Source: Stenotrophomonas sp. NA06056
Lineage (GTDB): Bacteria; Pseudomonadota; Gammaproteobacteria; Xanthomonadales; Xanthomonadaceae
NCBI RefSeq assembly: GCF_013364355.1
Contig: NZ_CP054931.1
Location: 248,001 to 312,000 of the forward strand
Direction: 5' to 3'
Length of the DNA stretch: 64,000 nt
Positions within the stretch are counted from its first letter, which is position 1. Each line of letters starts with the position of its first letter. Below are positions 3,809 through 44,101 of the stretch, in pieces. Both the position numbers and the translations under genes were made by a program. The notes beneath the pieces are model-generated. The model saw only the letters and a program-made list of their open reading frames with translations, was not told the DNA's origin and searched no databases.

Positions 3809-4327
3809 GTGCGGAATTACGATCTGGAGTTCCTGAAACGCTTCTCCATGGTGATCGCGCTGTTGATGGCCATCACCCTCGGTCTGATCCTCCTGGCCGC
3901 GTTCATCCACACCCGGATTCCGCCCGAGGTGTCGCCCACTGCCGCCAAACGCACCGAACAGCGCATTTCGCCCACCGGCGCGGTGTACGCCGGCAGTACC
4001 GGCGCGGCCGCGCAGGCTGCAGCGCATGCCGCCGCGCTGGCCAAGGCTGCCTCGCAGGTGGCCTACGGCGGTACCAAGGACGGCAAGGTGATCTTCGACA
4101 ACCTGTGCACCGCCTGCCATACCACCGGCGTGGGCATGGCGCCGACGCTGGACCACTCGCACTGGGACAAGCGCCTGGCGCAGGGCAAGGACACCCTCTA
4201 CAAGCACGCCATCGAGGGCTACACCGGCCCCGACGGCGGCATCATGCCGCCCAAGGGCGGCAACCCGGCGCTCACCGAAGAGCAGATCCACGCCACCGTG
4301 GACTGGATGCTGGGCAATCTGAAATAA
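3809..4327 (+). CDS. Membrane-anchored c-type cytochrome, cytochrome c5 family
   Basis: A 172-residue monohaem cytochrome c. An N-terminal membrane anchor (about residues 14-32, FSMVIALLMAITLGLILLA) is followed by an Ala-rich linker and a c5-like domain with the haem site CTACH (about residue 108). A downstream Met in GGIMPPKGG is the likely axial ligand. It probably carries electrons in the periplasm toward a terminal oxidase; the partner is unknown. The start is a GTG preceded by AGGGG. The next gene is separated by palindromes and a terminator, so it is monocistronic. Confidence 0.88.
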   Translation: MRNYDLEFLKRFSMVIALLMAITLGLILLAAFIHTRIPPEVSPTAAKRTEQRISPTGAVYAGSTGAAAQAAAHAAALAKAASQVAYGGTKDGKVIFDNLCTACHTTGVGMAPTLDHSHWDKRLAQGKDTLYKHAIEGYTGPDGGIMPPKGGNPALTEEQIHATVDWMLGNLK

Positions 4328-4337
4328 CGGGCCGCCG

Positions 4338-4361
4338 CATCCACGCATGGCGTGGATCTAC
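4338..4361 (-). repeat. GTAG palindrome, family C (arms ATCCACGC/GCGTGGAT)
   Basis: Single inverted copy ending in CTAC just downstream of the cytochrome stop codon. Confidence 0.75.
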
Positions 4362-4422
4362 TACGGATACGCGTGCCCGGTCAGGTAGCCGGCAACCACG
4401 CATCGCGCAGAGGTCATGCGGT

Positions 4423-4445
4423 TGCCGGCCAGCGGCCGGCACTAC
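4423..4445 (-). repeat. GTAG palindrome, family B (arms TGCCGGCC/GGCCGGCA)
   Basis: Inverted copy ending in CTAC. A degenerate forward partner (GGTAGCCGGCAACC) starts near 4384. Confidence 0.7.
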
Positions 4446-4462
4446 CTTTGCCCACCAAGGCC

Positions 4463-4489
4463 GAAACCCCGCCGCGCAGGCGGGGTTTC
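4463..4489 (+). terminator. Terminator-like hairpin after the cytochrome c gene
   Basis: Perfect 11-bp stem GAAACCCCGCC / GGCGGGGTTTC with a 5-base loop; the right arm itself ends in TTTC and is followed by a short T-containing run. It separates the cytochrome gene from the nuclease gene. Confidence 0.65.
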
Positions 4490-4536
4490 GCATTTCAGGG
4501 TTAGTCTGTGCGCCTCTTCCGTGGAGTCGTCTGTCG

Positions 4537-5976
4537 ATGCGTCGCCGTTCCCTCGCCCTTGCCCTGTCCCTGCTGCTGCCGGCATCCGCTTTCGCCCAGG
4601 CCCAGCCGCAGACTGCGCCGACCTCGGCGCCCGCGCCGCGCAGCCCGGCCACCGTCACCCTGGCCGCCGCGCCGGCCGATTGGCGAGCATTGGATGGCCA
4701 GCATGTGCGCATCGCCGCGCCGCTCACCCTGGCCGGCACCGATGGCCTGGAACGATTCGGCCAGCTCACCGTCGCCTTCGATGGCCGCCTCTGGCAACCG
4801 ACCGAAGTGGCGGTGCCCGGCAGCCCCGCTATCGAACAGGTGATGGCTGACAACCAGCGCCGACGCCTGCTGCTGGACGATGGCAGCGATGCGCGTGACC
4901 CGGCCAGCGTCGCCTACCTGCCGGGCAACCCGGTGCTGCGTACCGGCATGCAGCTGCGCAATGTGGAAGGCACCGTGCGCGTGGATGCGCAGGGCCGCCC
5001 CAGCCTGCAGGTCGACGGCACATTGACGCTGCCGGAACTGCAGCGGCCAGCTGTTCCCAGCGTGCCCGGCAGCCTGCATATCGCCGCCTTCAACCTGGAG
5101 AACTTCTTCAACGGTGACGGCCAGGGCGGCGGATTCCCGACCCTGCGCGGCGCACGCACGCTGGACGAGCACAAGGCGCAGGTCGGCAAGCTGGTCGCCA
5201 CCGTCAACGCGCTGGGCGCCGACATCGCCGCGCTGATGGAACTGGAGAACGACGGCTACGGCCCGCAGTCGGCCATCGCCGAACTGGTGGACGCACTCAA
5301 CGCCGGCCTCGCGGCGGACAAGCAGTGGGCGTTCGTTGATGCCGGGCAAGGCCCCGGCAGCAATCCGATCCGCGTCGGCATCATCTACCGCAGGAGCGAA
5401 TTCAAACCGCTCGGCAAGCCGCTGACCAAGCTCGACGGCCCCTTCGTCGAACACAGCCGTGCACCGCTGGCACAGGCGTTCCAGGGCAAGGGCGCACCGT
5501 TCATGGTGGTCGCCAACCATTTCAAGTCGAAGGGTTGCCGCGATGCTGGTGGCGCAGATGCGGACCGCAATGACGGGCAGGGCTGCTGGAACGCCACCCG
5601 TGTGGAATCGGCCAAGCAGCTCAACAGCTGGGTGCAGGCTGAAGCTACGCGCCTGAAGGTGAAGGACGTAGTGCTGATGGGCGACTTCAACGCCTACGCC
5701 ATGGAAGATCCGATCCGCACCCTGCATGACCTGGGCTGGCAGGATGCGTTCAAGGTGGCCAATGTCGAACAGCCCTACAGCTACGTCTACAACGGCTATA
5801 CCGGCCGCCTCGATCACGCGCTGCTCAGCCCGACGATGGCCAAGCGCCTGCGTGGCGCTGCCGAGTGGCACAGCAACGCCGACGAGCAGGACGCCAGCGG
5901 CTACCAGGGCCGCAACGTACAGGGCCCGTGGCGCAGCTCCGACCACGACCCGCTGCTGCTGGGCTTCGACAAATAA
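4537..5976 (+). CDS. Secreted ExeM/NucH-type endonuclease (EEP superfamily)
   Basis: A 479-residue exported protein. Residues 1-20 form a signal peptide (MRRRSLALALSLLLPASAFA). An OB-like region (about 40-180) precedes an endonuclease/exonuclease/phosphatase domain. Landmarks are HIAAFNLENFF, ALMELENDGYG (metal-binding Glu), VVANHFKSKGC, MGDFNAYAMEDP and a C-terminal SDHDPLLLGF with the catalytic His. The family includes extracellular nucleases of aquatic Gammaproteobacteria that degrade environmental DNA. The ATG at 4537 is chosen because it begins the signal peptide; the frame is open far upstream over the cytochrome gene, but that part is non-coding. Exact substrate is inferred. Confidence 0.88.
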   Translation: MRRRSLALALSLLLPASAFAQAQPQTAPTSAPAPRSPATVTLAAAPADWRALDGQHVRIAAPLTLAGTDGLERFGQLTVAFDGRLWQPTEVAVPGSPAIEQVMADNQRRRLLLDDGSDARDPASVAYLPGNPVLRTGMQLRNVEGTVRVDAQGRPSLQVDGTLTLPELQRPAVPSVPGSLHIAAFNLENFFNGDGQGGGFPTLRGARTLDEHKAQVGKLVATVNALGADIAALMELENDGYGPQSAIAELVDALNAGLAADKQWAFVDAGQGPGSNPIRVGIIYRRSEFKPLGKPLTKLDGPFVEHSRAPLAQAFQGKGAPFMVVANHFKSKGCRDAGGADADRNDGQGCWNATRVESAKQLNSWVQAEATRLKVKDVVLMGDFNAYAMEDPIRTLHDLGWQDAFKVANVEQPYSYVYNGYTGRLDHALLSPTMAKRLRGAAEWHSNADEQDASGYQGRNVQGPWRSSDHDPLLLGFDK

Positions 5977-18190: not shown

Positions 18191-18817
18191 TCAGACGATC
18201 GCGATCCCCGACTTGCCCAGCGACTCACGCACCATCGCGTCGTTGGCTTCGGTCACCGGCCGGGTCAGGTCCCACAGAAACTTCACCCGGAAGCCGGATT
18301 TCACCGCGTCCTGCGCGCTCCACAGCACGCAGTAATCGCGCGCCAGGCCGCACACATGCACCTCGCGGATACGGCGCTCATGCAGCCAGCCGGCCAGACC
18401 GGTCGGCGGGCGTTCGCCTTCGGGGCCATGGTTCTCGCGGAACGCGCTGTATGAGTCCACCTGCTGGCGGGTGCCCTTGCGCAGGATCAGATCGGCCACG
18501 GTCCAGTCCACGCCCGGGTGCAGTGCGGCCCCGTCGCTGCCCTGCACGCAGTGGTCCGGCCACAGGGTCTGCGGCTGCGCGTGCAGCAGGATCGCTTCGA
18601 ACGGCAGATGCCCCGGATGCTGGCTGGCAAACGAGGCATGGTCGGCCGGGTGCCAGTCCTGGGTCGCCACCACGGTGCGGTAACGGCGCTCGGCCAGCAG
18701 GTCCATGATCGGCGCCACCAGCGCATCGCCCTGTTCGCAGGCGAGGGCGCCACCGGGCATGAAGTCCGGCTGCAGGTCGATCACCAGCAGGGCGACATCG
18801 GCGGGCAGGGCAGTCAT
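18191..18817 (-). CDS. pncA: Nicotinamidase
   Basis: A 208-residue cysteine hydrolase that deamidates nicotinamide to nicotinate for the Preiss-Handler NAD salvage route. The catalytic triad is Asp14 (VIDLQPDF), Lys114 (LRKGT) and Cys163 (ARDYCV). Metal ligands fit Asp54, His56 and His89 (ATQDWH, PDHCVQG). The length matches E. coli-type PncA. It is followed on the minus strand by nothing in the same direction; queH lies upstream on the same strand with 56 bp between, so it could be read from the queH transcript. Confidence 0.95.
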   Translation of the reverse strand: MTALPADVALLVIDLQPDFMPGGALACEQGDALVAPIMDLLAERRYRTVVATQDWHPADHASFASQHPGHLPFEAILLHAQPQTLWPDHCVQGSDGAALHPGVDWTVADLILRKGTRQQVDSYSAFRENHGPEGERPPTGLAGWLHERRIREVHVCGLARDYCVLWSAQDAVKSGFRVKFLWDLTRPVTEANDAMVRESLGKSGIAIV

Positions 18818-18873
18818 GGCAGATCCACTACAACGTCAAGGGGCGACCAGCGTGGCCGCCCCTTGCTTGCACG

Positions 18874-19545
18874 TCAATCGCCCTGCGGCGTCTCAGCGTC
18901 CTGCCCGTAATACAGCAGGCCGATCCTGATCCGCTCGCGGCCGTTTTCGCGGCGGTGGCGGTTGGCATCGCGCAGCGAATACACGCAACCACAGTACTCC
19001 TGCTGGTAGAACTGCTCGCGCTTGCTGATCTCGACCATGCGGCTGGCACCGCCACCCTTGCGCCAGTTGTAGTCCCAGTACTGCAGACCTTCGTAGCGGG
19101 AGGCGGCGCGCACACCGCAGTCGTTGATCTGCGCCATGTTCTTCCAGCGCGAGATGCCCAGCGAGGAACTGATGGTGTCGTAGCCGTGTTCGTGCGCGTA
19201 CAGCGCGGTGCGCTCGAAACGCATGTCGAAGCACATCGTGCAGCGGATGCCGCGCTCGGGCTCGTTCTCCATGCCACGTGCACGGCTGAACCAGTTGTCG
19301 GTGTCGTAGTCGCAGTCGATGAAGGGAATGTTGTGCTGTTCGGCGAAGCGGATGTTCTCCTGCTTGCGCAGCTCGTATTCCTTCACCGGGTGGATGTTGG
19401 GGTTGTAGAAGAAGATCGCATAGTCGATCCCGGAGGCGGTGATCGCCTCCATCACTTCGCCCGAGCACGGCGCGCAGCACGAGTGCAGCAGCAGGCGCTG
19501 GCCGTTGTCGGGAAGGGTCAGGGTGGGTCGTTGGAGCTCGGTCAT
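18874..19545 (-). CDS. queH: Epoxyqueuosine reductase QueH (B12-independent)
   Basis: A 223-residue member of the former DUF208 family, now known as QueH, which reduces epoxyqueuosine to queuosine in tRNA without cobalamin, using an iron-sulfur cluster and a second metal. The characteristic cysteines are present: Cys23, Cys24 and Cys27 ([10 protein letters not shown]), Cys102 and Cys105 ([10 protein letters not shown]), and Cys185 and Cys187 (YCGCVYS). The start is uncertain: ATG at 19545, ATG at 19557 and GTG at 19611 are all in frame, and none has a clear ribosome-binding site. A cobalamin riboswitch lies upstream on the same strand. pncA is 56 bp downstream. Confidence 0.93.
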
Positions 19546-19636
19546 CGTCGGGTGCATCTGGGCGTGGGCAGCGGTCTGGCCGGAAACCGTGAACAGGACG
19601 CGCGCGGCCACGCCGCCTGCACGCGCAGGACGACGA

Positions 19637-19707
19637 CGGCCCCGGCAACCTCCCCGCGGAGATTCCAGGTCGAGTCAGGGGACGGTCGAGTCCCCCGGCC
19701 GGGGCCG
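19637..19707 (-). promoter_or_regulatory. Expression platform of the cobalamin riboswitch
   Basis: The 10-base segment at 19698-19707, the 3' end of the B12 box, is perfectly complementary to 19637-19646. Pairing them would exclude pairing of the B12 box inside the aptamer. Between them lie a GGGGAC/GTCCCC hairpin (19678-19695) and CTCC-GCGG-GGAG (19650-19661), which can hide a ribosome-binding-like GGGGAGG. No T-tract is seen, so translational or Rho-linked control is more likely than intrinsic termination (inference). Confidence 0.55.
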
Positions 19708-19905
19708 GTATTCGGGCTGATGGACACGGGCCGCAGCCCACCTACTACCTGCCGCTTCCCAGGCGCGAGCCCAGTGCTGTTGGCAGGATTCGTTTCCATT
19801 CACCGCTGCGGGGCAGCTCCGGAATGCGCGCGCGAGGCGCCTTCACCGGATTCCCGTTTAAATCCATCCCCTCGCGTGAAAGCCAGGACGGATACCTTCG
19901 GCAAG
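19700..19905 (-). ncRNA. Cobalamin (adenosylcobalamin) riboswitch upstream of queH
   Basis: Read on the minus strand, the region contains the ordered core of the cobalamin aptamer: GGTATCC near 19890-19896, TTTAAACGGGAATCCGGTGAA (shown in part here; 19840-19860), TTCCGGAGCTGCCCCGCAGC (19806-19825), AGCACTGGG (about 19772), GGGAAGCGGCAGG, and a B12 box AGCCCGAATACCGGCC at 19703-19718. The order, spacing and sequence match Rfam-type cobalamin elements. The next gene on that strand is queH, whose start is about 90-155 nt downstream. Confidence 0.9.
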
Positions 19906-20029
19906 TGCAAGGTGGACCGGTTGGCAGCAATGGTCAAGGGACACCATTACGCGCCAAAGCTGTGGCTGCCTTCTCAGGCTGTGAGAGCGCGTCTTGCCAT
20001 ACTGCACATCGACAGACGGGAGGTGGCTC

Positions 20030-43602: not shown

Positions 43603-44101
43603 GCGGGCATCCTCGACAGGAACGGAGGTGCCACCGGCGAAGGGTGGCGGACGATGCGTGGCTTCCAAGACCGTGTCAATGAGCCGGCGGGTACGAGACC
43701 CCCACGCACCGCCCGCCATACAGCAGCGACGGATTGTCAGCCGGCGCCGCCCACACAGGCGCGACGCCGGCCAACAAGCGTAAACAACATTGACAACGCG
43801 GGCTTGGAAGTCCCGGCTACCCGATGCAGGTAGCGATTCATCTTGGGCACGCGAAGTCGTGACGCACCAATCAATTGTTCCGATGAATTCGCTGTTCCCG
43901 AAAGGAAAATTGAATTATCGCGATTGGCTTGTTTTGCCTGCCATCTAGGCAAAAGCGACACCACGCGCAGGCCTGATCACGGCGCTCTGTCGCGAGCGCC
44001 TGCATCGCAACATCGCAGGCCACGCGCTGCCTGCACTGCAAAGCTGGCTTAACCGCTGCACCGAGCCATGCACACCCTCAGCGCAGCGCCAAGCAACGCC
44101 C
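43603..44101. other. 500-bp gap with AT-rich patch and hairpin
   Basis: No convincing gene. The part 43840-43955 is clearly richer in A and T than its surroundings. It contains a perfect hairpin TTTTGCCT-N7-AGGCAAAA at 43932-43954, which could act as a terminator in either direction. No promoter is assigned. Confidence 0.5.

Follow-up and report, generated by a model that had tools for sequence, protein, structure and literature searches.

Why would an RNA predicted to sense vitamin B12 stand before queH, a gene of queuosine synthesis whose product, as Zallot et al. are said to have reported in 2017, reduces epoxyqueuosine without B12? A first-pass annotation of the window (the whole stretch of 64,000 nucleotides that was analysed) had placed a cobalamin aptamer in front of queH and predicted that cells turn to QueH when B12 is low. 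The features on which the answer depends are listed here, in the reading order of the minus strand.

19909..19937, minus strand: putative promoter-like sequence, TTGACC (19937-19932), 17 nt, CACCTT (19914-19909)
19686..19914, minus strand: cobalamin riboswitch aptamer (RF00174, 88.4 bits, full length)
19805..19817, minus strand: aptamer stem-loop L5, loop CCCCGC, present in 31/31 leaders read
19707..19718, minus strand: B12 box AGCCCGAATACC, from the sequence, within the RF00174 match
19647..19664, minus strand: proximal hairpin, stem 19664-19658 with 19653-19647, loop GCGG; likely output element, from covariation
19553..19580, minus strand: place of the deletion that removed metE, from blastn to L029
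18874..19536, minus strand: queH, predicted epoxyqueuosine reductase of the B12-independent type (PF02677, solved QueH chains, conserved ATG 19536)
18838..18864, minus strand: GC-rich inverted repeat between queH and pncA, without a T run, from the sequence
18191..18817, minus strand: pncA (nicotinamidase), which may belong to the same unit (NCBIfam NF008623.0 (PRK11609.1), 180.4 bits against a cut-off of 174)

A cmscan search of the window, proposed by the annotation, returned a single cobalamin riboswitch match (Rfam Cobalamin, RF00174), on the minus strand at 19914-19686, covering the model at full length (1-189) with 88.4 bits and an E of 1.8e-20 against a gathering score of 31.5. It agrees within a few bases with the span read from the letters (19700-19905), and the B12 box placed at 19703-19718 is found inside it as AGCCCGAATACC at 19718-19707. 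The aptamer ends 150 nt before the ATG of queH, on the same strand and without an intervening gene, and its core is near invariant in 14 relatives. We take the stem-loop at 19805..19817 to be L5 of the cobalamin riboswitch. Across 14 leaders CTTGACC is invariant despite differing sequence further upstream, and metE-type leaders have TACCTT at the position of CACCTT; a consensus scan found no sigma-70 site at this promoter-like sequence. In the whole genome, RF00174 matched twice among 150 scored of 298 first-look candidates. The other match (L001, 95.4 bits) precedes a btuB-like TonB receptor frame, named by eye. It shares the Rfam family of the queH switch, but it heads an uptake gene rather than an isozyme gene and, in the stretch read, its aptamer is not directly followed by a GCGGGG hairpin.

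The switch is followed on its strand by queH, as had been claimed. The product of this gene matches Pfam PF02677 (QueH) with an E of 6.8e-65 and 218.9 bits against a cut-off of 23.5, and solved QueH chains with an E of 3.6e-28, while NCBIfam gave no match for it. Its CCAP, RCxxC and YCGC cysteine motifs align with the solved QueH 7lc5, which we take to be of the T. maritima type. The start at ATG 19536 is conserved in 14 leaders. The start at GTG 19611 given in the open reading frame list was rejected, as the in-frame extension runs into stops in most relatives. Further, pncA begins 56 bp past the queH stop, as annotated, and comes after queH in relatives too.

A B12-dependent counterpart, for which a search of the rest of the genome had been advised, is present as a 463-aa open frame matching QueG (PF08331, E 6.1e-25). 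Predicted B12-dependent and B12-free enzymes for the last queuosine step thus coexist in the window's genome. QueG matches occurred in 25/26 genomes searched and QueA in 7/7, and the window's genome has both. The MetH domain was found in 32/32 genomes, the window's among them (G092 has it in two pieces, and an internal TAG interrupts it in G131), and the MetE N-terminal domain PF08267 in 19/37. MetE (PF08267) gave no match in any of the 16 genome records of the direct type, in which the switch directly precedes queH and to which the window's genome belongs, or in G017 and G092 (Xanthomonas). The 16 records represent 14 distinct genomes, because G071/G127 and G098/G126 share contigs. CbiC, taken as the single marker of corrin-ring synthesis, was found in 0/29 genomes searched, the window's included; because of this one marker B12 is probably taken up, and the window's genome is likely that of a B12 salvager. 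As G000 (whole genome) and 15 other direct-type records have a MetH match, no MetE match and, where searched, no CbiC, methionine synthesis in this group should depend on outside B12. QueG gave no match in just one of the 26 genomes, G018, and there the switch lies downstream of queH rather than upstream (L110 4845-5846: queH, then the cobalamin switch), which in this single case suggests that a QueH standing alone is not under the switch.

RF00174 was also searched in 78 genomes, which cover 79 of the 80 named QueH loci (L077 was left out and L093 lies in the record of L090), with at most 50 first-look candidates scored per genome and nearness judged from coordinates. The switch stands directly before queH at 13/80 loci (L019-L028, L030, L031 and L042; S. 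maltophilia and near kin). It is separated from queH by metE at 6/80 (L029, L032, L033, L034, L036 and L046), and at L039 it lies 1.3 kb upstream, behind a partial Meth_synt_2 gene (E 5.6e-11). At 4/80 loci (Lysobacter L035, Dyella L038 and L056, Luteimonas L058), it is found 5.7-5.9 kb upstream and precedes the first gene of a valine-degradation operon whose last gene is queH. Altogether 24/80 loci are associated with a switch, and the other 56 include nine Xanthomonas and one Luteibacter. Burkholderia and Bordetella switches whose coordinates looked close to queH (L053, L060) were discarded when a direct check gave no match in the loci. Four settings place queH under a cobalamin switch: queH may stand alone, follow metE, follow a core-MetE-like gene, or close a valine-degradation operon. 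The operon, with genes of the mmsA, acyl-CoA dehydrogenase, enoyl-CoA hydratase and mmsB types and queH as its last gene, was also seen behind a cobalamin riboswitch at L099-L102, L124, L125 and L151-L153, from Lysobacter, Dyella, Luteimonas and three Stenotrophomonas genomes; four genes of L100 were checked by Pfam, and mmsA and the remaining members were named by eye.

The annotation had also advised comparing close relatives. The switch-queH stretch (1041 bp) served as the query against 91 Stenotrophomonas genomes. It matched in one piece in 39 and, in 25, in two same-strand pieces separated by roughly 2.5-2.7 kb; 3 had queH elsewhere, 1 had a queH-end fragment only and 23 had switch matches only. 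By tblastn, metE lies between switch and queH in 25/25 of the split genomes (in two pieces in the draft L138). In the three with queH elsewhere (G607, G610 and G573), a cobalamin switch heads a valine operon leading to queH, as judged by eye, and the queH of G573 seems frame-shifted. A cobalamin switch is therefore upstream and on the same strand in 67/67 genus genomes with a long queH match (39 direct, 25 after metE, 3 valine), counted by match length and not by frame integrity, and the element before queH recurs in close relatives as expected.

In a family sample, QueH was present in 12/119 genomes, 8 of which have a same-strand upstream switch: directly in G000, G071 and G098, in G001 (the genome of L039), and at about 5.75 kb in G048, G058, G085 and G090, where the gene order was looked at in G048 and G058. 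The contig of G030 stops 152 bases before its queH match. Xanthomonas G017 and G092 have both QueG and QueH, and neither has a switch before queH, which indicates that the coupling is not required. In a class sample, QueH was found in 58/369 genomes. In none of the 56 outside the family did RF00174 match in the 10 kb upstream of queH on its own contig and strand, under stricter filters and with short contigs that may conceal some; the sub-threshold match in G449 is on the other strand. Within our sample of Gammaproteobacteria and close loci, the coupling appears to be limited to Lysobacterales.

How did a B12 switch come to stand before queH? The annotation had invoked metE and metH as an analogy, and the analogy proved literal: the same leader RNA heads metE in relatives, and metE has since been deleted here. 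Judged from the alignments, the queH switch is metE's riboswitch with metE deleted. The queH and metE leaders share one RNA as far as about window 19580, and blastn of the window against L029 aligned 19939-19580 with 1158-1517 and 19553-18707 with 3984-4829. L019 matches L029 in two abutting pieces (62-421 with 1158-1517 and 421-1195 with 3923-4695). The 2405 bp (about 2.4 kb) missing relative to L029 comprise the distal part of the leader together with the metE frame as far as its stop codon region, and the window shows a further small loss, from 19580 to 19553, beyond this L019-type deletion. Lost together with metE was a module made up of the distal hairpin, an anti-ribosome-site and the ribosome site. 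No MetE remnant was recognised by eye in the leader frames of queH.

The junction sequence common to the 14 direct-type leaders read argues for a single deletion event. The QueH protein tree places L029 inside the metE-less group (99/87) and the DNA tree of queH and downstream sequence places it outside, with weak group support (33/41) and some long-branched rows; recombination at the locus is possible, and the two trees do not settle the number of events. The order switch-metE-queH-pncA was seen in L033, and switch-metE-pncA in G029, which has no QueH match. The opposite loss was observed in L154 (G619, 519-2999), where switch and metE are retained and queH is a 26-residue remnant. A GC-rich hairpin with a CCGCCGTTGCCGGCGG core, from the former metE-queH gap, stands just before queH in 10/14 direct-type leaders (L019-L024, L026-L028 and L030) and is missing in the window, L025, L031 and L042.

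What remains between aptamer and queH includes a proximal hairpin (19647..19664), whose GCGGGG at 19657-19652 is complementary to the CCCCGC of L5. The L5-L13 contact is the usual switch contact in cobalamin riboswitches. The covariation input was 14 distinct stretches from 31 leaders, with repeats dropped. In these, 89.5% of cells were paired against 73.0% in shuffles, 6/7 pairs had changed on both sides, and the covariation score was 0.518 against 0.221; further pair types were not unusual, 100/500 shuffles being as high. The Lysobacter leaders L116 and L117 have no proximal hairpin. The L5/GCGGGG contact itself shows no covariation because both loops are nearly invariant. A pairing of the variable P4 arm with the hairpin loop was dropped, since this arm changes freely and the constant L5 fits better. 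Folding of the whole leader was no better than shuffles (z -0.48), and an anti-P1 pairing of GGCCCCGGC with GCCGGGGCC, present in the minimum free energy fold, was set aside because it is lost in more distant leaders.

Among metE leaders, 15/17 have a second hairpin, downstream of the first, that fits the pattern GGTTCGCCCGCGGGGGCGAAGGTC or nearly so, and both hairpins were found by the pattern used in 13/17; L120 has a further variant by eye and none was seen in L122. Leaders with the second GCGGGG hairpin are L033 (1395-1609), L029, L032, L034, L036, L103, L109, L114-L121 and L123. In Stenotrophomonas-type metE leaders, CCTTCGTTCCTC and then a GAGGA ribosome site stand between this hairpin and metE. 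Leaders with both hairpins may have two serial switch outputs or contain a second element. Rfam gave only Cobalamin at gathering level on the metE leaders L114-L123; lower matches (up to E 1) were to microRNA and CRISPR families, all below gathering scores, and were disregarded. As to direct-type leaders, none of the 14 has a ribosome-site motif of the short list used in the 12-15 nt before the queH ATG, and a scan of the minus strand found no intrinsic terminator. Because queH has no recognisable ribosome site and no terminator was seen, output by transcription (e.g., Rho) or RNA decay is suggested.

The reading we favour, with a probability of roughly 0.78, is that the queH leader acts as a cobalamin riboswitch and reduces queH output in ample B12, that it formerly belonged to metE, and that deletion of metE made queH the first gene. 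The ancestral order would have been switch-metE-queH-pncA before some 2.4 kb, with metE and the ribosome-site module, were deleted. With plentiful B12, the switch would be closed and the B12-dependent QueG would finish queuosine. With scarce B12, QueG would fail, the switch would open, and QueH would take over, so that scarcity raises queH output to back up QueG. B12 as the ligand is presumed, as is the OFF direction, by likeness to metE. Output would now pass through the proximal covarying hairpin and act on transcription or RNA stability rather than by ribosome-site masking. The original prediction of QueH use at low B12 gains comparative support from the presence of queG, the same-strand switch and its recurrence in 67/67 genomes in three operon settings. 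On the other hand, the loss of the metE output module and the lack of a visible ribosome site or terminator count against this reading.

These same losses would suit a leader that has regulated nothing since metE and its ribosome-site module disappeared: the distal hairpin, anti-ribosome-site and ribosome-site module are gone, and queH has no ribosome site to mask. We consider such a relic unlikely, given the conservation of the RNA. Measured as mean pairwise difference per site among the 14 metE-less sequences, the aptamer core (19863-19686) differs by 0.026 (0.071 with the variable 5' arm included), 19685-19634 by 0.053 and 19633-19540 by 0.112, against 0.179 at fourfold sites and 0.059 in queH overall. 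Core and proximal hairpin are thus the most conserved parts of the locus and vary much less than fourfold sites or the remaining leader. Conservation of the core after the loss of metE argues against a relic and is expected if the switch still acts. Moreover, the switch is still directly before queH in 39/91 genus genomes, and control of queH probably predates the deletion, because queH is the second gene behind the same switch in 25 others.

It is less probable still that the switch governs queH and pncA jointly, with NAD salvage as an equal or the main target. pncA does lie 56 bp behind queH here and behind metE or queH in L033, L103, L112 and G029, but a GC-rich inverted repeat separates it from queH, the valine operons end in queH next to mmsB without pncA, and pncA is not known to be linked to B12. 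Least probable is a switch that turns queH on in the presence of B12, for although the sign rests on analogy with metE, the same RNA heads metE in relatives and repression of metE by a B12 riboswitch is the case described in PMC5481537.

Beyond the favoured reading of B12 repression inherited from metE, we propose tentatively, at a little under even odds, that switch control of queH is a selected trait of Lysobacterales, held in four settings. The S. maltophilia group would have started from a leader that had two serial L13-like hairpins; the translational output of this leader would have gone with metE, and the proximal hairpin would have become the output that couples B12 to wobble-base modification of tRNA.

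The closest known system is the metE cobalamin riboswitch, which belongs to the same RNA family; the queH leader is homologous to the S. rhizophila-type metE leader, and in both a B12-free isozyme is placed under B12 control with the B12-dependent isozyme retained in the genome. The difference is that queH adjoins the switch here and that the metE leader's distal hairpin and ribosome-site module have been lost by deletion. Where metE remains, one predicted B12 switch heads the genes of both B12-free enzymes. The protein is of the same family as QueH elsewhere (PF02677, non-orthologous replacement of QueG), with cysteine motifs that align to 7lc5, but here it coexists with QueG under a predicted B12 switch, an arrangement seen in 0/56 class-sample QueH genomes outside the family. 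RNA switches are known in the queuosine pathway, namely preQ1 riboswitches before genes such as yhhQ (PMC5372724), but they sense a queuosine precursor, whereas here the cofactor of the competing enzyme would be sensed.

Isozymes of B12-dependent enzymes form one class of cobalamin-switch targets according to PMC3766115, and metE is given as repressed by a B12 riboswitch in PMC5481537. PMC6461909 notes QueH as a newly found alternative, without analysis. A link between queH and a cobalamin switch was not found in the literature searched, much of it in partial text, and a listing in RegPrecise or in the gene tables of PMC3766115 is possible. The kind of regulation is thus known; within those partial sources, neither queH as target nor the change of first gene by deletion was found described. 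Queuosine would join the functions for which bacteria are predicted to alternate between a B12-dependent and a B12-free enzyme, which would link an external vitamin to tRNA wobble modification and decoding. The locus also appears to be a natural case of a riboswitch changing its first gene by deletion, with the forms before and after within one genus. These two leader forms open the output step to direct comparison; PMC9600662 describes B. subtilis as a reporter host. When B12 is exhausted in these bacteria, which have MetH but gave no MetE match, queuosine is predicted to be protected and methionine synthesis not.

Several further observations were made. At window 43640-43723, a C4 antisense RNA match was obtained (RF01695, 53.0 bits, cut-off 45), and no phage-like genes were recognised by eye among the frames of at least 200 aa around it. 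In Stenotrophomonas sp. MMGLT7, an SAH riboswitch (RF01057, 44.6 bits; L104 2194-2303) precedes an ahcY-like frame, close to a core-MetE-like gene and queH. Finally, the record JAHREJ010000013.1 (L032), titled Bacillus subtilis SK7B5, is probably mislabelled, because its queH groups with Stenotrophomonas and its gene order is the switch-metE-queH of that genus.
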